Positions 12,921 to 47,167 of a stretch of DNA of 64,000 nt are shown here, in pieces; the stretch's first letter is position 1; each line of letters begins with the position of its first letter. The DNA is from Rugalucina vietnamica (lineage: Eukaryota; Mollusca; Bivalvia; Lucinida; Lucinidae). The notes below the pieces were generated by a model. It was given only the letters and a program-made list of their open reading frames with translations, was not told the origin of the DNA and did not search any database. The position numbers and the translations under genes are program-made. The stretch lies in the NCBI GenBank assembly GCA_964017185.1, contig OZ024882.1, positions 36,194,488 to 36,258,487 on the forward strand, read 5' to 3'.

Positions 12921-13862
12921 CTATACGCTATTAAAAGTGATATAAAAATTGAGACAAACCTCGGTTTTTTGCCTTGTATGGCCCGCCATTATCTCAAGTA
13001 TGGGTTTCGTTGGAGGCGTGTTTTCACTGTCAGCTTTACTCCTTCTTCCTTCGGAATTATCGCTCTTGCTTTCATCAGCTGTGTCACTTCCATCGACGGT
13101 ATCGCTTTTGGGAGCATCGTTCCAGTTTTCACCGGAAGTATCGCTCCTGTTTTCACCAGAAGTACCGCTTCTGCTTTCACTCGAATTACCGCTCCTCCAC
13201 CCACCTACCATATCGCCCCTGTTTGCATCGGAAGTATTGCTCCTGTTTTCACCGGAAGTGTCGCTCCTGCTTTCACCGGAATTACCGCTCCGGCTCCCAT
13301 CTACCATATCGCCCCTATTTTCACTGGAAGTATCGACTCTGTTTTCACAGGAAGTATCGCTCCTGTTTTGACGAGAAGTGTCGCTGGGGCTCCCATCTAC
13401 CATATCGTCCCTGTTTACACCAGAAGTATCGCCCCTGTTTTCACCGGAATTACCGCTCCGGCTCCCATCTACCATATCGCCCCTGTTTTCATCGGAAGTA
13501 TCGCCCCTGTTTTCACAGGAAGTATCACTCCTGTTTTCACCGGAAGTATCGCTGGGGCTCCCATTTACCATATCGCCCCTGTTTTCATCGGAAGTATCGC
13601 CCCTGTTTTCACCGGAAGTATCACTCCTGTTTTCAACGGAAGTATCGCTGGGGCTCCCATTTACCATATCGTCCATGTTTTCACCGGAAGTATCGCTTTT
13701 GTTTTCACCGGAAGTATCGCTCCTGCTTTCACCGGAAGTATTGTTCCTGCTTTCATTAGATTGGCCAGAGCTTCCAGTTACACTTTGCCGGTAGTCGTTT
13801 GTTTGGACAGCTTCGCTCATGGTTCTTCTATCAGTTTCGGCGCTTATGTTGGTATTTTCCAT
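12921..13862 (-). CDS. hypothetical Ser/Asp/Asn/Arg/Gly repeat protein (24-bp repeat frame)
   Basis: From ATG at 13862 to a stop at 12921 (313 codons). The N-terminus MENTNISAETDRRTMSEAVQ is not repetitive. Most of the rest is octapeptide repeats of the type SDTSGENR, with longer super-units ending DDMVDGSPSDTS or DMVDGSRSGNS. The C-terminal part reads PPTKPILEIMAGHTRQKTEV. The 24-bp period keeps two plus-strand frames open too (12974-13759 and 12912-13880), so an open frame alone is weak evidence. The non-repeat flanks also being open only on this strand favours it slightly. It could equally be a non-coding minisatellite. Confidence 0.35.
   Translation of the reverse strand: MENTNISAETDRRTMSEAVQTNDYRQSVTGSSGQSNESRNNTSGESRSDTSGENKSDTSGENMDDMVNGSPSDTSVENRSDTSGENRGDTSDENRGDMVNGSPSDTSGENRSDTSCENRGDTSDENRGDMVDGSRSGNSGENRGDTSGVNRDDMVDGSPSDTSRQNRSDTSCENRVDTSSENRGDMVDGSRSGNSGESRSDTSGENRSNTSDANRGDMVGGWRSGNSSESRSGTSGENRSDTSGENWNDAPKSDTVDGSDTADESKSDNSEGRRSKADSENTPPTKPILEIMAGHTRQKTEVCLNFYITFNSV
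13030..13760. repeat. 24-bp minisatellite with higher-order units
   Basis: About 30 units of GTTTTCACCGGAAGTATCGC+TCCT. Every few units a variant (GGGGCTCCCATCTACCATAT or GCTCCGGCTCCCATCTACC) marks a super-unit of roughly 96-120 bp. Confidence 0.85.
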
Positions 13863-31445: not shown

Positions 31446-34400
31446 CTGAAACAATCAAATTGGACAGTGTTTTTCTATGTTATTTATTTAGACAGTTATC
31501 AAGTGGAAAATTGGTTTAAATGAACATTTGTGCTTTGTCTTTGTACAATGCTCACTGGTTGTTTGTTATGATCACTTATGGTAAACAAATAAGCATAAGC
31601 CGCAAGGCTTTTTGTCTGAATCCCTTCAAAGATTAATGTACTGTATATTAGTATGTTGTTATTCAAGTCCGAACCAGAGGACCAATGGTCCTGTAAACGC
31701 TCACCTGAGTCTGCTGCATATACCAATAAACATGTTTGAATATTATGGTATTTAACCCCAGTGCAGGGGCAGATGAAGCCCTTGGGCCGTTTTCTTTTTT
31801 CAGAATAATCAATATTCTGTCCATTTGCCAATTTCTTGCTGGTTTTTCCCTTCAAATGACATTTTAACAGTTTTTCCCATTTAAATGCATGGGCAACCCA
31901 TGTTGACCTTGCCATAAACTTGGTCAAGGTCATCACAGGGTCATGATTTATATATACATTGTAGTACTATAGCCATGGATGCTTCATGCCAAGTTTCATT
32001 GAAGTCAATCTATCGGTTTCAGAGAAGATATTTGAAGGGTTTTTACCATATATGGGCATGGCGGCCATCTTGGTCATGTGACCTAGATTATTAATATACA
32101 CATTGGTCCTATAGATGCTTCACATAAAATTTGGCTTCAATTGGCCAAGTGGTTTTAGAGGAGAAGATGTTTGAATATTATGGTAATATACATGTATATT
32201 GCCCCGGGGTGTGGACATATGAGCCCTTAGGTCCATTTTTTTTTTTCAGAATCATTAATATTTAGTCCTACTACCCATTTCCTGCAAGATTTTCACTTCT
32301 AATGACTTTTTAAAAGTTTTCCCCATTCCAATGCATTGGCGACCTATGTTGACCTTGTCCTAAAATAGGTCAAGGTCACCACAGGGTCATGATTTATATA
32401 CACATTGTAGTACTTCAGCCATTGGTGCTTCATGCCAAGTTTCTTTGAAATCGGTCCACCAGATTCGGAGAAGAAGATTTTTGAAGGGTGTTAACCTTAT
32501 ATGGGCATGGCAGCCATCTTGGTCATGTGAACTAGATAATTTATATATACATTAATTCCTTTATTCCATAGATGCTTCACATAAAATTTGGCTTTGATTT
32601 GCCAAGCGGTTTCAGAGGAGAAGATGTTTGCATATTATGGTAATATACATGTATATTGCCGCGGGGTGGGGGCAGATGAGCCCCTGGGGTCCATTTTTTT
32701 TTCAGAATCATTAATATTTAGTCCTACTGCCCATTTCCTGCAAGACTTTCACTTTAAATTACATTTTAAAAGTTTTCCCTATTCAAATGCATTGGCAACC
32801 TAAGTTGACCTTGCCGTAAAAAAAGGTCAAGGTCATCACAGGGTCATGATTTATATACACATTGTAGTACTTGAGCCATCGATGCTTCACGCCAAGTTTC
32901 TTTGAAATCGATCCACCAGTTCTGGAGAAGATTTTTGAAGTGTTTTTACCATATATGGGCATTGCGGCCATCTTGGTCATGTGACCTGGATTATTTATAT
33001 ACACATTGATAACCCCTTCCTATTGATGCTTCACATAAAATTTGGCTTTGATTGGCCAACCGGTTTCAGAGGAGATGATGTTTGAATATTACGGTAATAT
33101 ACATGTATATTCAGGCTTTCAAGTGGGTTTTGATGAAAAAGTAGGAGAAAAGTAGGAGCCAATTCAAGAAAAAAGTAGGAGAAAAGTAGGAAAAAGTAGG
33201 AATCTGATGATAAAAAGTAGGAATCATTATATTCAACTTACCAACAAAACTGTATATAAACTCACTATAATGGCACAGGACAGCTTGGAAAAATCCAGTC
33301 ACAAGACATAAGGGCTGTATTGCTTCGGGATGATCTAAGATCTTGCTGTACATGCTGCTGTCAACCTGGAATTTTTTTTAATTTATTACTCAAATTGAAC
33401 ATTAAAACAAACCATAAAACACAGTGAATTTACTGTTCAGTGTTATTCCAGTGAGAGACAATTTGATGTTTTAATAAGCTTGCTTTGAGTTAGAAATGGT
33501 AGATTATATCAAATATGATATTCCTGAGTGTGACCTGTCAGGTAACAGAAACAAGTACACAGACCAGGAAATCATATTTCAGAGTTGAATGAGCTAGTCA
33601 ACCAGCTTCCCAATGTCAATCTCATAGATTTATGCAACAACCTATAGAGCATGTGGGTTTGAGTTACAATGGGCTAGATAGTCAACCAGCACTGTCTCTC
33701 TCTAGAACATGCATGTTTATCATCCATGGAAACTTTTAAAAAGCAAAGCTACTGTCACTATAAATCAAAAAAGATTTATACATGTACATATTCAAACTTG
33801 CAAGATATGAAGCATTTGTGAGTTTGTAATATAATTGATCATTAGCTAATTACTACAAAGTAACTAAAGAGCATCAAAACAACTGAACACAAAGGATGTG
33901 CACTCTAGAACAACTCTTTTAAAGCAGCTATTTACAGGTGCCTGTGGCTTAAGACTTAATTTCTTAACTGAAAGTATCAGCTGCAAATGGACAAGGTACA
34001 GGCAAAGCAACACTGCTACAATAAATTCTAGTCTTCCATCATGGAGACAGAACTAAAATTGGTCACTGCAGTTTGCCCTACCTAAACCTTTCTGAAATCA
34101 CTGACCAACAAAATTGAAAAGACATAGCAAGTTGAACAAAATGATCCTCAATTACATAGATCTTGCCACTTTTTGTTCCTTTTACTAATTATCTTTTAAA
34201 TTGTGACAGCCAGTGATTTCCTGAGTGGTAAGGATTACTTGAATATTACCTGATGATGTTAAGTTTTAGGTATATTCTAGTATTTCTTTCCACTCATGAT
34301 GCACCTATCTATGTTTATTTCCAGAGTGGCGGTTCAGGAAAGGAAATCAGAAATTTTAAGAAAGAAAAAATATTTCCTTTGCCAGTCTGTCTTGTAAATT

Positions 34401-37400: not shown

Positions 37401-40400
37401 AATGCCAGTGGACTCGCCCAAATGATAATGACGGGCAAGTCCATTTTGTCAAAAATGGGTTGAGTAAGATCCCTACTTACCCAGGAAAGCACTATTACAC
37501 ACACAGGTCATCAGTGCACGGATGAACTTTGACCTCTTCGTGGTCGGATCGTCTACATTGGATTCTATCCAATCAAACACCTGCTCATTATCTCGTTTCT
37601 CCAGCACGATGAGACGGTGTAGTTCCTCTTCAATCTTAACCATAGGAAGACCTGTTGTCGGCGTAGTCGGGACACTATCACCACCTTTTGTGAACTCCAG
37701 TTTCTGAAGCATCAAGATAACAGTAAAACAGTGTACTTGGGAATGAATTACATTTTTTTTCATGTTTTCAATTCAAAACCTAAACTGCGAGTTCTCGTTC
37801 GAACCCCCTTGCTGAGGCGGTTCAAACAAGTACATGTTCCTGCAATCTACGTTTGAGCAAAAATAAGAAAAATATCAATGAAAATGTTTTCATAAGAAAA
37901 TATTCAATGAAAATTTACCATTTCTGAAGCTGTAAAAATCTTAGTATATTTCAATAAGATGGTGTTAATTTCTCTTCAATCTTAGCAGTGAGCCTGGTAA
38001 TGACATTAGTGCTCTTAACCACTCAGTCTCTGACAGCCTGGGGGCCGCCCAGCCAAGTAGTGAAGTTTCACTAATACTCTATTCGAACAAAAACAAAGGC
38101 ACAGATGAGCTGCACAGATAGCATGCTACTGATCTGTGCCTCCTGTATTTACTATTGTTACCTGATCAATGAGGAACTGTTCTATCTGGTTCTTAGGCAG
38201 GAAGTCTGTCCACTGTAGACCCGACGACTGCCAGAACTCCGCTATCTTTTTATGGCCCTGAAAACAAACAATTATATTTGCTATAACAGAGAATATAAAC
38301 TATTGAAATGACTTTGAACTTCTATACTAGTATATATAAATAGACAATGTAACTTGTAAATTCAGCAATACAGGGGACACAATTCTTTAAAGGGACAAGT
38401 GGAAATTCTTTTTATTAAACCTACACATTAAAATTTAAAAGCAGGCCAGCGAATCAACAGACTCCCCATTTAATCCAAGTCATTCTGAAAATAAAGTATT
38501 TCTTTATTAATAAACACGGACATGTGTAGCAAGTTAAAAAATACATGCAGCATTAGCGTCTGGTACCATGAAATAAATTCAGCTCAGTCGTCTGCGATCT
38601 CATCAACTAGATCTTAAAACTTCTCAATAAAGACTGACTATAAATCGAGATTATGAAATTTATTGACCTTTTAAATAGACTAGTCAGGGTCCAGTACAAG
38701 GTTATCCATATAAAATTGTAAGACTGAAGATTTTGTTTGTTTGTTATGAGATTAAATGTCCCAGTCAATTTTTAAGTCTTGTTGAGACAAATATGACTTA
38801 AGAGAAAAGTATAAATACAGATTGCATTCCAAATTTTTGGAGTAAAAGAAAGAGAAAAGCGCATCTCGTACCATCACCAAAAAGGCATTCAAAGACATGC
38901 AAAAAGAAAAAAAAAAGTACAGAAAAAAGGCAAACTAAAATGCAGCAAAGTAAAGAATTAAACTTGCAAAATATCCCAGCTTGGGAGAAAAAAAGTAACT
39001 CATTCTGAATGTTGAAGACTCACAGACTGCTTTGTTTCTTTATTTTCAGCCATCTTAAACCACAGAATTATGATACTAGTAACTAAACACACTAAGCTGA
39101 CTCAGGAGTTCAACAAGTTTTCTCATTAAATGAGCCTGTGCATGAGAAAACCACCAATTTGGGTTTCCTACCAGGTCTGACATAAACCAGGCTGTACAGT
39201 CACAGAATAAAGCTAGAAGCTTGAAACTTTGGATATAAGCAGAAGAGGAATTGTACTATCCATGTGGCGAAAAACAAAGGTGCTGATCAGTTGTGCAGTT
39301 ACTGCACAGCTGATCTGCGTCTTTGTTTTCCTATATGCAAATTGTTGGTTTTCTCATGCGAAGGCTCAAATGGTCTAATCATCTTTCATGTATAAAGAAA
39401 TTTGACTTTTAAGGTTAAGAGAGCTAAGAAGTATAGTTTATGAAGCACAAATAACGACAAGATACCTTTTTACGACAAGAGATATGCGTGTAGGATGTGT
39501 TCTGATATATGGGAGCCACCACCTATTCCTGCACCACTATATATGTAAATTTTGTACTTCAAAAACTGGCTCAAAGTGTTTGCTTTTTGGACAGGCAGGT
39601 AATTAAAACAGTTCTTTACACAGGCATCCATTACAACCCTACACTTAGTTATTACCTCTCTGTGGCATGCATCATGTAGCACCTCCGCAACAAAGATACC
39701 AGCTTTGTTAGAGGGACTGTCTACCAGAGGCTTGGCGGCCTGTTTGAGGAAGCTGAGTGGTACGCTGCCGTCCTGGATCATCTGCCCGACCAGCTCACCG
39801 AGGTATTTCCAGATCTTAGGAATGTCAATCTCCATATCCTCGGCAAACTCTAAGATCTCTATCAACCTGTGAGTGAAAATGAGATACACGTATTCTCAAA
39901 AATCCTCAAAACAAAGAAAATTGAAATGTATACACTTAATGAGCTCTGAGTGATGAAAAAATGTCTTTTGGGGTTCTGACAATCTGTACAATCACAGGAA
40001 AAGGCTAGAAGTTTGAAATTTCAGAGTGAAGAAGAGGGATTGTATTATGCATTTAACGAAAACAAAGGCGCTGTCAGATCAGCTGTCTTTGTTTTCGCAT
40101 ATGCAAAAAGCCAGTTTTCTCATGACAAGTGCACATTGGTTCTAGGTTAACATTCCAGTCAAGAATTTTTCTGTAATGTTGGGATGGAGCCAGGCATGAG
40201 TTCGAAAACCTGGAATCTTTGTAGTTGTGCTTTTCTGTTTTGATACGAGATAGCTCCTTTTAAAATTGTGTTGCCTAGCTATATCGACAATACTTAAAAT
40301 GTGAAGAAGACACTGTATTGCTTCTTTCAGACCTTGCAACCTTTTTATCACCAGTTTATCTCCTACAATGTCTCACTCACCCTTTAATATATGAATCCAC

Positions 40401-43400
40401 CGACACTATTTGATTCTCCTACGTCTCACTCACCCCTTAATATATGAATCCACCGACACTATTTGATTCTCCTACGTCTCACTCACCCTTTAATATATGA
40501 ATCCACCGACACTATTTGATTCTCCTACGTCTCACTCACCCTTTAATATATGAATCCACCGACACTATTTGATTCTCCTACAATGTTTCACTCACCCATT
40601 AATATATGAATCCACCGACACTATTTGATTCTCCTAATATGTCTCACTCACCCTTTAATATATGAATCCACCGACACTATTTGATTCTCCTAAGTCTCAC
40701 TCACCCTTTAATATATGAATCCACCGACACTATTTGATTCTCCTACAATGTCTCACTCACCCTTTAATATATGAATCCACCCATACTATTTGATTCTCCT
40801 ACAATGTTTCACTCACCCATTAATATACAAATCCAAAGACACTATTTGATTCTCCTACAATGTCTCACTCACCCTTTAATATATGAATCCACCGACACTA
40901 TTTGATTCTCCTACAATGTTTCACTCACCCTTTAATATATGAATCCACCGACACTATTTGATTCTTGACTAGATCATGTAAGAAATGGCCGGTCTGCCGT
41001 CGGGCCACCTCGGACCGCTCTAATACATGGTTCAAGGCATTGCCACAGAAGTGGGCGTGGTTGGCTGGAGGTAATTCTTTAACACAAAGGATAGCTTCCT
41101 GTAAACAGAGAGAAAAATTATGTTTACAACAATTATGTCAGCTGCCTCGGCAAAAGTTTGCTGACAATGCAACCTTTTCTTTTACATACACAGTACCATT
41201 TAATAATGCATATTGCTTTGATGTTGCATAACCTTTTTATGGGATATAGCTTCTTGACAGCAAGAAAAATATATTTAACACTATCATGTCCGCTGCCTAA
41301 GCAAACATTTGCTGACATTGTAACCTTTTCTTTCACATATAAAGCAGCATATAATAATGTCTATTGCTTTATGTTGTAAAACCTTTTTTGTGAGATTTCT
41401 TTTAATTTATTAGGTAGATAAATGGCTGACAGGTTTGGATGAAATTTTACAAAAAACAAATATGGAGTTTTGCTTGTAAGTACTCATGAACAGATGGCTT
41501 ATATGAGTGAATGTATGATTCGGACCTCTTGACTTTTGTTTTGATTTTATCTTTTCAAGATTTATGAAAGTAAAGTTTTGTGCTCCACCAAGACTCATTC
41601 TGATCTTTAAAGCTAAGCAAGTTTGCAATCGTTTCTGTACCTAACTTCTCAGAAATCAAAGACAATACCTTTATGTCTTGTATATGTAAATATTCATCTA
41701 AGATTGCTTTCGTTTTCTTGTCAATTTCTGCTTTAGGTAACTCTGGTTGAGGTGGTGTAGCGACAGGTGAAGGTCGTTCTTTCTCGGGTTCACGACCTCT
41801 TGACCTCTCCCTGGGGGCAATCTCAGCTGACTGGCTGATACCCATACTCCTGCAAGTAATAAATGTCAGTTATGATGATGAGTTATCAGCAATTATTATG
41901 AAACCTCAACAATTTTTCTGCTTCTCTGGATGAAGTGAAAGGTGTTATTTCAATTTTCACATGGCTCTACCTCATGAGGTGTATCATGTCATGTTTCAAA
42001 ACATTTGCTAACAATGTGACCCAATACTTAGCCCCATCAATATCAAGCTTGGAAAAGCAACTGAATACAGTCAATGACCTATTCAAGCAGGTTGTGTTAC
42101 TGTCAAATGTCATTTTAAAGATTGATGTGTAGCTCACTTCAAAAGCAGGCAACTTTTCCCTCTGCTACCTTTTATGTGCTGAATAACACTATCTTGAGCA
42201 TTTAAAATGTCAATTTCATTATAAATTGTTATGAAACAGCTCAAAACAAGTCCATCTAAAACTTACTTGACAGCAGCAATGGCTTTCTCTCTCTCCTGTT
42301 CCTGAGAGGCTCGGGCTGCCAACCGTGGGGGCTGACCAAACCCTCCCCGGCCCCGCCCCTCACCCCGGGCTGGACTGACTGAACTGTAGCCTCGCCGTGA
42401 CTCCTCCTCAGGCTTGCTGAGGGCTGAGAACCTGGAAAATAATTTCGTAAAATCAGAAATTGTTCTACAGTGTTGTTGATTATAATCAGCATGCCTTCAG
42501 GATTTCTTAGGCCTTCATTCGAAGTATGTAATGTACTCATCTTAGATTCCAGATAGTCTTTTGAATTTATGCTGTCACTCTGCATGAATAACTAGCAATG
42601 ACACTAACATTTTTTTCTAATATTTTTTCAGTCATGTATGGATGGAACTAACGTTTCCTGTGTACTGAAGTTGTAATAACTTATGATCAATAAATCTCTC
42701 CTTACCTATTGCTAGGAGCTTGTGGTCGTTCTTTCTCCTGTGAGGCTCTAGCCCCACCCCCTGTACTACCCCGACCCCAGCCTGCAAACCTACTAGCACC
42801 ACCACCGGGACCTAGCTGGATGGAAGATTCATCTACTTGTTGCTGAAACACAGATGAAATTACAATTTACACACAAATCTTGATCATTTTATCTGTTGAA
42901 ATAAGAGTTCAAGTCAATGTTTGAAACAATTCCTGGGGAAGCTTCACTTGAGCCAATTACCAACTTGTTGATAATTGACAACTTTTTTTTTTTTAAATCA
43001 GCAGACATAAAACATGGTCATAGAAATATTTTAAAGACTAAATCTTCATACCCAATGCAGTTTAAATGGCTGGCACACATTTATCCCGATTTCCAGTTAT
43101 CTACCTCAGAAACGAGGAATTCATAAGATTCAACATGGCATCTTTCGATACATGAAGTCATCATTGGTAGAGTAACACTTAGCAAGATATTGACAAAATA
43201 TTTGTAAATCAAGCTACATTTGATTTTTTCCCCATTTAATATAATGGCCAAATGTCGAATTTTGATACAATTCAAACAGAAAACACAGTTCGTTGTTTCT
43301 ACACTTGTAGATACAATTTTGTAATATATGAGGTTTCCTAGATTATGTTGTGAGTTAAAATATGTTTCTGTGAGCAACTTTTCAGTCATGATGGGATGTA

Positions 43401-46400
43401 CCGGTTTCCTGGGTACTCATAGAATACACGTATGAACTACATGTAGGCAACATTTTGATAATTTTCTCTCTAATTAAATAACAGGGTTATCTACCTCAGA
43501 AACGAGGAATTCATAAGATTCAACATGGCATCTTTCGACACATGAAGTCATCATTGGTAGATTCTACAGTCATGGAATAAACTGATGATATCCTGACATC
43601 CTGAGAATTGTTTTCTCTCATTTGGATGTAAAAACTTGCTTAAATAGCTTGTTTAAAAACCTTTCTTAAAGACTTACAAAACAGAAATGCTGGATAATTT
43701 TTGCATAGGGACTGACACATCTAGTTAAAACAGTGTAGTAACATTTATGACTGCAGGATGCATGTCAAATTTTACATTCTATTTTTTTTTATCATGTTAA
43801 GAGCCTTGCATAAGTTTATGGTGACTAGGTTAGTCAAGGTCAATATTTCTTATAGGTTAGCTGTATTAAGTTTTATTAAAGTTTAAATCTCAGGGAGGGG
43901 ACTCATTATATAAAGCTTCTCAAAATTTTAATTGGTTGGCGCGTTGATTTTGTATTTTTCATCTCACTCAATAGCTACTAACATATGGAGACAGGACCAC
44001 AATTTTAAGTCTCGTCCGAAGGACTGGAGAAACCGGGATACAATTCATATCCCTTTTTTACAGAGAAAGAAAGGTGATTTCACTGACTGGCAGATCTCTC
44101 AATGACATTAGTCCTAGGAAAGGCTCAGGAATTTTTTAACCTATTTTCTACCTCAGAAACGAGGAATTCATAAGATTCAACATGGCATCTTTCGACAAAC
44201 CAAGTCATCATTGGTAGAACAAATCATTCAAAACAATAAGCCACTTCTTCCTAGGTATTGAGCAATACTTAACTAAGTTTATTTGTCTTGCTCAGCCCTG
44301 GTGGGGTTCCAACCCCAGACGTTTCCATACAGACTCTGAGATCACATGACCACAGCCCCAATAAGTGATGACTGTTACATATATCTATGATTTATACCTT
44401 TGAGATCTTCATTTTAGTTGGGTCAATTGACCGGTCTATAGACTTGAACGGTGTCCGTGACTGGCCACCAACCATGTTCCAACCATCAGCACTCGGTGGA
44501 CCCATACCACCACCTTGAGGCCCCCGGCGACCTGGAACACAGAAACAAAACCATGTTGGAGAAATCTACACGCATTGTGAGAAAACCGGATTTTTGCCTG
44601 TGCGAAAACAAAGATGCAGATCAGCTTTGCAGCAACTGCAAAGCTGATCAACGCCTTTGTTTTCACTGCTCTGATAGTACAATTCCTCTTCTATTTAAGT
44701 CTAAAATTTCAAGAAGCTAGCATTTTTGTGTGACTGTACAGGCCAGTTTGTGTCGGACCTAGTCGGAAACCCTAAAGACCAGTTTTCTTGCAATGCGGCA
44801 CATTTGGTTTACAGAAATTCAGAAGACTAGACACATGTATAGGGAGCATTTGATGTTAAGGGATAATATGACACAATGACTCGATGATATCTACAAGGCC
44901 ACCATGCTTCCAATACTTAAGAATGGTTTGCCTCTTTTGATTTCAGCCTCGACACAAGAAAACCAAGTCTTCAGGATTTTCAACTGATCCAGGTCAAACC
45001 AGCAATTTTTTATTCTGGACTTGAGAAGGAGAGGGATTGTATTATCCATGTAGCGAAAAAGAAAGGCGCTGATCAGCTACTTCACAACTGATCTACGGCT
45101 ATGTTTTCACATATGCAAAAAATCCTGTTTTGTCATACAGTGGCTCACTTGATCCTCGACATCCCAGTCAACAGTTTGGAACCAATATTTCTTGTGCATT
45201 TACCAGTATCATGGGGATTAAATGTGCTTTACAAAGGTAGGTAATCAACCCAGAATCTATCCACTTAGGGAGTAGCAATACTACTTGGAAGTGCTTTACA
45301 AAGGTAGGTAATCAACCCAGAATCTATCCACTTAGGGAGTAACAATACTACTTGGAAGTTTGACACCATACTCCAATTACAAATCTTCAATTAAAACAAT
45401 GTTTTCTGAGGAAAACTATGTCCCCCCAACCGTTTAGTAATTGAAGTGTAGTTACCTTGTGATATGAAGTTTTTCTAGGGAAGACACCATGTAAGGTGTG
45501 ATAGTTTAAACTTGTTTTGGACCCTGTCTAAAATTGGGTCACAATCACCAAATTCTTATAAACTCTGAACCTCCTCACAACAATGCTTCTGAGCAAGTTT
45601 GGTCAAAATCCATCAATTAGTTTACAAGATATCGTATCGGAAAAACTAATTTCAACAGTTTTTATGGACCCGTGACCTTGGAAATTAGATCAAGGTCATC
45701 AAAATCTAATCAACTTTGAGCCTCCTCCAAACAATGCTTCTGTGCAAGTTTGGTCAAAATCCATCAACTGGTTTACAAGATATTGCAGTGAAAAGACTAA
45801 TTTCAACATTTTTTTATGGACTCGTGACCTTGAAAATTAGGTCAAGGTCACCGAAATCTAATCAACTCTGAGCCTTCTCGCAACAATGCTTCTGTGCAAG
45901 TTTGGTCAAAATCCATCAATTGGTTTACAAGTTATCGAGTTGGAAAGATTAATTTCAACATTTTTTATGGACTCGTGACCTTGAAAATTAGGTCAAGATC
46001 ACCAAAATCTAATCAACTCTGAGCCTCCTCCCAACAATGCTTCTGTGCAAGTTTGGTCAAAATCCGTCAATTGATTTACAAGATACTGCGTTGGAAAGAC
46101 TAATTTCAACATTTTTTATGGACTTGTGACCTTGAAAATTAGGTCAAGGTCACCAAAATCTAGCCGACTCTGTGCCTTCTCGCAACAATGCTTCTGTACA
46201 AGTTTGGTCAAAATCCATCCATTCGTTTACAAGTTATCGCGTTGGAAAGACTAATTTTAACATTTTTTATGGACTTGTGACCTTGATTATTAGGTCAAGG
46301 TCACCAAAATATAATCAACTCTGAGCCTCCTCCCAACAATGCTTCTGTGCAAGTTTGGCCAAAATCCATTGATTGGTTTACAAGATACTGCATTGGAAAG

Positions 46401-47167
46401 ACTAATTTCAACCTTTTTTATGGACTCGTGACCTTGAAAATTAGATCAAGGTCACCAAAATCTAATCAACTCTGAGCCTTCTTGCAACAATGCTTCTGTG
46501 CAAGTTTGGTCAAAATCCATCTATTGGTTTACAAGTTATCGCGTTGGAAAGACTAATTTCAACATTTTTTATGGACTCGTGACCTTGAAAATTCGGTCAA
46601 GGTCACCAAAATCTAATCAACTCTGAGCCTCCTCCCAACAATGCTTCTGTGCAAGTTTGGTCAAAATCCATCAATAGGTTTACAAGATATTGCATTGGAA
46701 AGACTAATTTCAACAGTTTTTATGGACTCGTGACCTTGAAAATTAGGTCAAGGTCACCGAAATCTAATCAACTCTGAGGCTCCTCCCAACAATGCCCTTG
46801 TGCAAGTTTAGTCAAAATCCATTCATTTGTTCAGAAGATATTGCGTCGGAAAACCTAATTTGATCAGTTTTCATAGGCTGGTGACCTTGAAAATTAGGTC
46901 AAGGTCACCAAAATCTAATCAACTCTGAGCCTCCTCCCAACAATGCTCTTGTGCAAGTTTGCTCAAAATCCATTCATTTGTTCAGAAGATATCGCGTCAG
47001 AAAACCTAATTTGATCAGTTTTCATGGGCTGGTGACCTTGAAAATGAGGTCAAGGTCACCAAAATCTAATCAACTCTTTCCCCCCTCCCAACCATGTATC
47101 TATGCAAGTTTGGTCAAAATCCATCCACTGGTTCAAAAGATATCGCGTAAGAAAGAAGCTACGCGGA

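Follow-up and report, generated by a model that had tools for sequence, protein, structure and literature searches.

This analysis concerns an intron of an eIF4G gene in Rugalucina vietnamica that begins with a tandem array of copies of the preceding exon end and its splice donor. The gene lies on the minus strand of a 64,000-nucleotide stretch (G000:C14:36194488-36258487, hereafter the window) of an assembly of 1.09 Gb in 47 contigs. Ten minus-strand frames were scanned with Pfam. The matches come in the order PF21140 (eIF4E-binding), MIF4G (two frames) and MA3 (two frames), and the remaining five of the ten frames are without a match. An eIF4E-binding region, MIF4G and MA3 thus follow each other on one strand, as in an eIF4G gene. 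The exon at 41098-40929 matches positions 18-77 of the MA3 profile (E 5.5e-5), and its best PDB match in phmmer is human eIF4G (1ug3), a weak one (E 0.0067). Positions 76-112 of the same profile are matched by residues 9-45 of the open reading frame 39470-39895 (E 2.6e-6). The features of this part are listed below in the direction of transcription.

40929..41098, minus strand: eIF4G exon of 170 nt that encodes the first part of MA3; unit 1 of the array is formed by its final 37 nt (Pfam, phmmer, boundaries).
40963..40965, minus strand: AGA in the exon, left copy of a 3-bp microhomology; the right copy is at 40361-40359 (flanking sequence).
40362..40965, minus strand: minisatellite of 11 units, seven of 56 bp and four of 53 bp (TRF and unit decomposition).
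40921..40930, minus strand: exon-proximal donor GG|GTGAGTGA, with the intron starting at 40928, probably the real 5' splice site, with an in-frame MA3 join to 39866.
39867..40928, minus strand: intron of 1062 nt with ten decoys and the acceptor TTTTCACTCACAG|G (exon boundaries).
40373..40874, minus strand: ten decoy donors, all of which retain GGGTGAGTGA.
39761..39866, minus strand: start of the next eIF4G exon, limited here to the MA3-matching part (Pfam, acceptor).

Over the window, Tandem Repeats Finder (TRF) gives a repeat at 40359-40965 with a period of 56, 11.1 copies and 93% matches. Decomposed on the minus strand from 40965 to 40362, the array measures 604 bp in total, and the mean pairwise identity of its units is 0.94. 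The MA3 exon ends within unit 1, which includes the exon's own donor, and the ten units 2-11 are intronic. Each unit has an exon-derived part of 37 nt, AGAATCAAATAGTGTCGGTGGATTCATATATTAAAGG, followed by GTGAGTGARAC and a short linker. The exon is presumed to be the source of the units, because it is the part that is conserved with eIF4G. Its 37-nt stretch is unchanged in six of the ten intronic units, and GG|GTGAGTGA is intact in all 11 units. The first GT bases of the decoys are at 40872, 40816, 40760, 40704, 40651, 40595, 40539, 40486, 40433 and 40380. Eleven near-identical copies are not a matter of chance. With the exon as query, at least ten matches were found in the genome, all of them within the eIF4G locus. 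The units differ from each other by substitutions and 3-nt indels, which argues against a simple duplication in the assembly. An earlier reading of the window from its sequence only had described a unit made of an exon end and its donor, repeated to give about 11 near-identical donors, about ten of them decoys. This composition and these numbers were confirmed; the exon-derived part, given there as 36 nt, is actually 37 nt. The donor array of eIF4G is real and its anatomy is otherwise as first read.

The edges of the array read GTCA|AGAATC on the left and GTAGG|AGATAAAC on the right, and they fit a tandem duplication at the 3-bp microhomology. One ancestral copy with AGA at each end would give such an array through a microhomology-joined tandem duplication. 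The units contain only the last 37 of the 170 exon nucleotides, so the array is not a tandem duplication of the whole exon with both splice sites. They read TATATTAAAGG|GTGAGT or near variants and do not show the pattern of recursive splice sites, an acceptor AG directly before GT with a pyrimidine tract. They also do not provide a new donor together with a new acceptor, as intron gain by the AGGT model would. The eight AG contexts of the intron that are richest in pyrimidines all lie outside the array, by a simple pyrimidine count rather than an acceptor model, which bears out the earlier statement that the intronic units are without an acceptor.

When donor 1 is joined to 39866, the frame is open through MA3. 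Reading past donor 1 leads at once to GGG TGA (...SYIKG*), and every distal donor of the array runs into the same stop, just as had been foreseen for the use of any distal donor. Because the MA3 frame is kept open with donor 1 only and is stopped otherwise, we infer that donor 1 is spliced and must be the productive site.

The strength of the donors was expressed as the predicted pairing energy with the 5' end of U1. Donor 1 and seven decoys, eight units in all, have -10.9 kcal/mol, and the other three decoys have -11.2 kcal/mol. The level of -10.9 kcal/mol is reached by 28 of the 7307 GT sites in the window, 11 of which are the array's own donors. Donor strength was therefore rejected as the selector, since seven decoys are equal to donor 1 and three are slightly stronger; an exon-proximal choice among such near-equal donors cannot rest on strength, as the sequence-only reading had implied. 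Predicted accessibility was rejected as well, because the predicted probability of being unpaired is 0.038 for donor 1 and falls inside the range of the decoys (0.004-0.199). With strength and predicted accessibility ruled out, position remains. Donor 1 would then be selected as the donor that is transcribed first, lies nearest the upstream acceptor and gives the shortest exon (170 nt).

TRF also reports other tandem repeats in the window. A 151-bp unit is present in 10.8 copies at 45530-47156, between eIF4G-matching frames. A 24-bp array of about 27 copies lies at 13116-13755 and overlaps longer periods of 96 and 168, and a 457-bp unit occurs in three copies at 31766-33111.

The genome was searched for strong donor motifs that recur three times at a spacing of 40-70 bases, with the reversed motif as control. 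The counts are overlapping matches and not arrays, and the places listed are the first ones. The motif AGGTRAGT gave at least 1121 matches versus 240 for its control (the matches of AGGTGAGT included), AGGTGAGT 441 versus 7, TGGTGAGT 401 versus 61 and GGGTGAGT 194 versus 40. AGGTAAGTB showed little excess (196 versus 158). Among the matches listed, 37 local arrays were picked by eye and their upstream edges were inspected, dispersed families, simple repeats and a small number of others being excluded. They come from AGGTRAGT (8), GGGTGAGT (13), AGGTGAGT (7), TGGTGAGT (4) and AGGTAAGTB (5). The listed donor arrays outside the 37 are C2:38040881 and C2:38161264 (AGGTGAGT), C4:44618630, C5:48645732, C9:2668052 and a C10 family (GGGTGAGT), C5:67088224 (AGGTAAGTB) and dispersed or simple ones among the AGGTRAGT matches. 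Sixteen of the 37 arrays start at an exon end that belongs to a recognisable gene. The exons that carry these donor arrays are as follows.

SMARCD exon (E 1e-16).
EB module exon (Pfam match).
Ubiquitin hydrolase exon, L041, at C1:80.212 Mb (6e-5, under the Pfam cutoff).
Class C GPCR exon (1e-6, under the Pfam cutoff).
Exon of a JADE/BRPF-type gene, L042 (named from later exons with EPL1 and PHD).
RABGGTB exon (E 2e-11).
Heat-shock factor exon (0.005, weak).
Acyl-CoA dehydrogenase exon (4e-12).
Kinesin exon (6e-9).
PGAP1 exon (homology match).
EF-hand protein exon (homology match).
PLC-beta-type PH_14 exon (homology match).
P-loop NTPase exon (homology match).
APC1 exon, L066, at C4:6.379 Mb (25-bp unit; E 2e-17).
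Sld5 exon (0.002, weak).
MRP-type ABC transporter exon (2e-7).

The array exon of the JADE/BRPF-type gene itself has no Pfam match and no meaningful PDB match. The 25-bp unit of APC1 includes just 2 nt of exon and the array starts almost exactly at the donor, so that donors are multiplied there nearly without exon sequence. A further 8 of the 37 arrays (L048, L050, L061, L064, L075, L076, L086 and L088) begin at an open frame that resembles an exon but has no homology that was counted; for L061 there is a weak zinc-finger match (8e-4), and the stretch inspected stops short of its upstream edge. No exon was seen in the upstream edge of the other 13 (L043, L045, L046, L049, L051, L052, L054, L057, L058, L059, L074, L077 and L089), among which the repeat extends upstream of the stretch inspected in L045, L049 and L077 and a very short exon is still possible in L052 and L054. 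TRF over 156 kb (the window, L009, L011, L013, L015, L016, L018, L020, L022, L025 and L039-L046) gave no further array of 40-85 bp with at least 2.8 copies beyond those picked by motif. The eIF4G array is not an isolated oddity, as 16 of 37 others start at the exon ends of recognisable genes.

Donor arrays range from three to about nineteen copies, with more in L076. At this place (G000:C2:15928071-15936262), at least 81 overlapping matches of a 49-bp donor unit extend with gaps over 8.2 kb. The first of these copies closes an open frame that looks like an exon but has no match in Pfam. This is possibly the longest donor array among those seen. A dispersed AGGTAAGTAGACC repeat family with many donor-like motifs occupies L009-L024 and further places on C1 and C2; it may be a mobile or satellite element.

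The arrays that begin with an exon share the behaviour seen in eIF4G. Within the sequence inspected, 17 of 18 such arrays (eIF4G included; L061, L075, L076, L086, L087, L088 and L090 are outside this set) have only distal donors that are out of frame, blocked by a stop or both. The ubiquitin hydrolase array departs from this, as its 57-bp units leave three donors (+57, +114 and +171) open and in the reading frame. Its distal donors could insert 19-residue repeats in the protein. In predicted U1 pairing, 117 downstream GGTRAG sites of 20 arrays were compared with the exon donors; 85 are equal, 20 stronger and 12 weaker, in a set picked by motif, so that lost donors are uncounted, and with one eIF4G site outside the ten decoys.

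Arrays of acceptors were inspected in the same genome. The motif TTTTNCAG is enriched over its reversed control (1211 versus 462) and CTTTNCAG is not (469 versus 1133). Arrays whose last copy adjoins an exon were found in one of seven cases for TTTTNCAG and in none of eight for CTTTNCAG, these 15 being a minority of those listed. The one mirror case (L069, C1:6.873 Mb) consists of 39-bp units, the last acceptor copy of which adjoins an exon of INO80C (PDB match, E 5e-9). By eye, the INO80C units are open in the exon frame (13 codons), and upstream acceptors could add 13-residue repeats.

The array in eIF4G is probably a minisatellite that arose by duplication of an exon end with its donor, is spliced at its exon-proximal donor and is tolerated rather than selected. 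A 56-bp segment spanning the 3' end of the MA3 exon and its 5' splice site would have been duplicated in tandem through the 3-bp microhomology, and the duplicated segment would then have been expanded and partly homogenised. The pre-mRNA would bear 11 near-equal donors, the exon-proximal one of which would join the next exon, and the ten intronic copies would be removed along with the intron. The choice of donor 1 would most likely come from exon definition, or simply from its place as the first donor transcribed and the nearest to the upstream acceptor. To judge from the sequence, the array is most likely tolerated, as its sister arrays in the genome would be. Several observations weigh against this account. 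Invariance of the donor block in 11 of 11 units, which could be a hint of selection to keep the donors, has a P of 0.04 with all 56 unit columns counted (14 variable) and of 0.13 with the 48 columns that precede the indel-bearing linker (8 variable). No spliced retrocopy showing the mature junction was found, all 12 genome matches being at this locus. Exon-anchored arrays make up 16 of 37 donor arrays versus 1 of 15 acceptor arrays (Fisher P 0.011), in a comparison of motifs that differ in sensitivity and noise and of arrays chosen by eye, which is suggestive of donor-type arrays being commoner than acceptor-type ones. Pure indifference would predict a donor excess only if acceptor copies were tolerated less or if the two motif searches differed in sensitivity.

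Selection could act on the array through dosage, if some transcripts used a decoy, met the immediate stop and were degraded by nonsense-mediated decay (NMD), so that copy number tuned the output of eIF4G. This role and the polymorphism of unit number, both suggested in the sequence-only reading, are conjecture. Ten near-equal decoys with an immediate stop make leakage likely and costly, but similar arrays at the exon ends of 16 other recognisable genes point to a general by-product, and we regard this explanation as improbable. Somewhat less probable again is that additional U1 sites help the gene by reinforcing exon definition or by guarding the intron from premature polyadenylation. The lack of any broken donor among the 11 units (P 0.04 when all 56 columns count) would agree with such help, and so would 105 of the 117 downstream GGTRAG sites in 20 arrays, whose predicted pairing with U1 equals or exceeds that of the exon donor, in a set picked by motif in which broken copies are uncounted. 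However, the invariance is not significant without the indel-bearing linker (P 0.13), and in an intron as short as 1062 nt protection seems little needed. Tissue-specific use of decoys to yield a truncated eIF4G ending in the middle of MA3 is permitted by the sequence, but all distal choices reach the same stop and would likely be NMD targets, which makes this very unlikely. An assembly artefact is hardly credible, given units that differ by substitutions and indels and arrays of many different sequences in a 1.09-Gb assembly of 47 contigs.

The birth of the array raises another possibility, not exclusive with tolerance, that breakpoints of tandem duplication are concentrated at the 5' splice site. 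Units would then often consist of an exon end and little beyond the donor. The intronic part of the unit is at most 12 nt in 13 of 20 exon-first arrays (null about 0.18, P 5e-6), namely eIF4G, 14 others with homology and five with an open frame only, L061 being excluded; it is so in 9 of the 15 arrays with homology (P 6e-4, Kolmogorov-Smirnov P 0.003). The excess of matches over reversed controls for AGGTGAGT, TGGTGAGT and GGGTGAGT points the same way. However, the 12-nt limit was set after seeing the data, only one of four fresh arrays fell under it and the clustering was not repeated. AGGTAAGTB is near its control, match counts are not array counts, and in eIF4G the intronic part of the unit is 19 nt long. 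The clustering of breakpoints near the donor is a lead and is not confirmed, and a hotspot at the splice site seems rather doubtful.

A wider reading can be offered tentatively, that this genome has a class of donor arrays, seeded at the 5' splice sites of conserved genes, all of which would be read correctly by choice of the exon-proximal site, the same rule applying to the acceptors of INO80C. In such a class the splice site itself would perhaps promote tandem duplication, and the spliceosome would face several to dozens of near-identical donors per array. To our knowledge, the choice among equal donors by the spliceosome has been studied mostly with constructs so far. The arrays offer a natural test of this choice in many conserved genes of one genome, where a wrong choice mostly meets an immediate or early stop. 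They make the exon-proximal rule, the relation of leakage to copy number and the rule at donors versus acceptors directly testable in one species, and they bear on intron lengthening and on the origin of minisatellites. The genome-wide setting is therefore of more interest than the single array of eIF4G.

Constructs with a duplicated 5' splice site have been used to study splice-site proximity, and as in eIF4G identical tandem donors compete in them for one acceptor. In contrast, the ten decoys of eIF4G occur naturally and their gene is an endogenous one. In the human gene IFI6 (6-16), a minisatellite of short 12-bp units reportedly supplies several donors that are used. The eIF4G array agrees with this type in straddling the 3' end of the exon and the donor and in having a full-strength donor in every unit (11 of 11, at -10.9 to -11.2 kcal/mol). 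It differs from the IFI6 case in that its units are 53-56 bp, every distal choice stops and other genes of the genome have similar arrays. Going by its title, as cited in PMC2915984, PMC3618361 and PMC2572611, Turri 1995 already put in print a minisatellite that gives rise to multiple splice donors, and this is where the likeness to eIF4G lies. Human genes in segmental duplications have internal tandem repeats at exon-intron boundaries, with 27 intron modifications, in the part of PMC2812944 consulted. According to the same part, those repeats are likewise of minisatellite size, lie at such boundaries and affect splicing, but they are variable, in recent paralogs, and give new introns or variable exons, whereas the genes with donor arrays here are conserved and their exon is apparently unchanged. 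The intron gain in potato RdRp, as the available section of PMC4974935 presents it, also involves a tandem duplication that takes in splice signals; in contrast, the eIF4G units give no acceptor, and an old intron grows while none is new. The portions consulted of PMC12783039, on first-intron minisatellites of an earthworm metallothionein, and of PMC3549977, on chicken MUC2, hold nothing of the donor-array kind. A genome-wide class of donor arrays was not found in the parts of the open-access literature searched, in which eIF4G was not a search target. Measured against these sources, the multiple-donor minisatellite is a known kind, and what is new is that the eIF4G array has similar arrays across the same genome.

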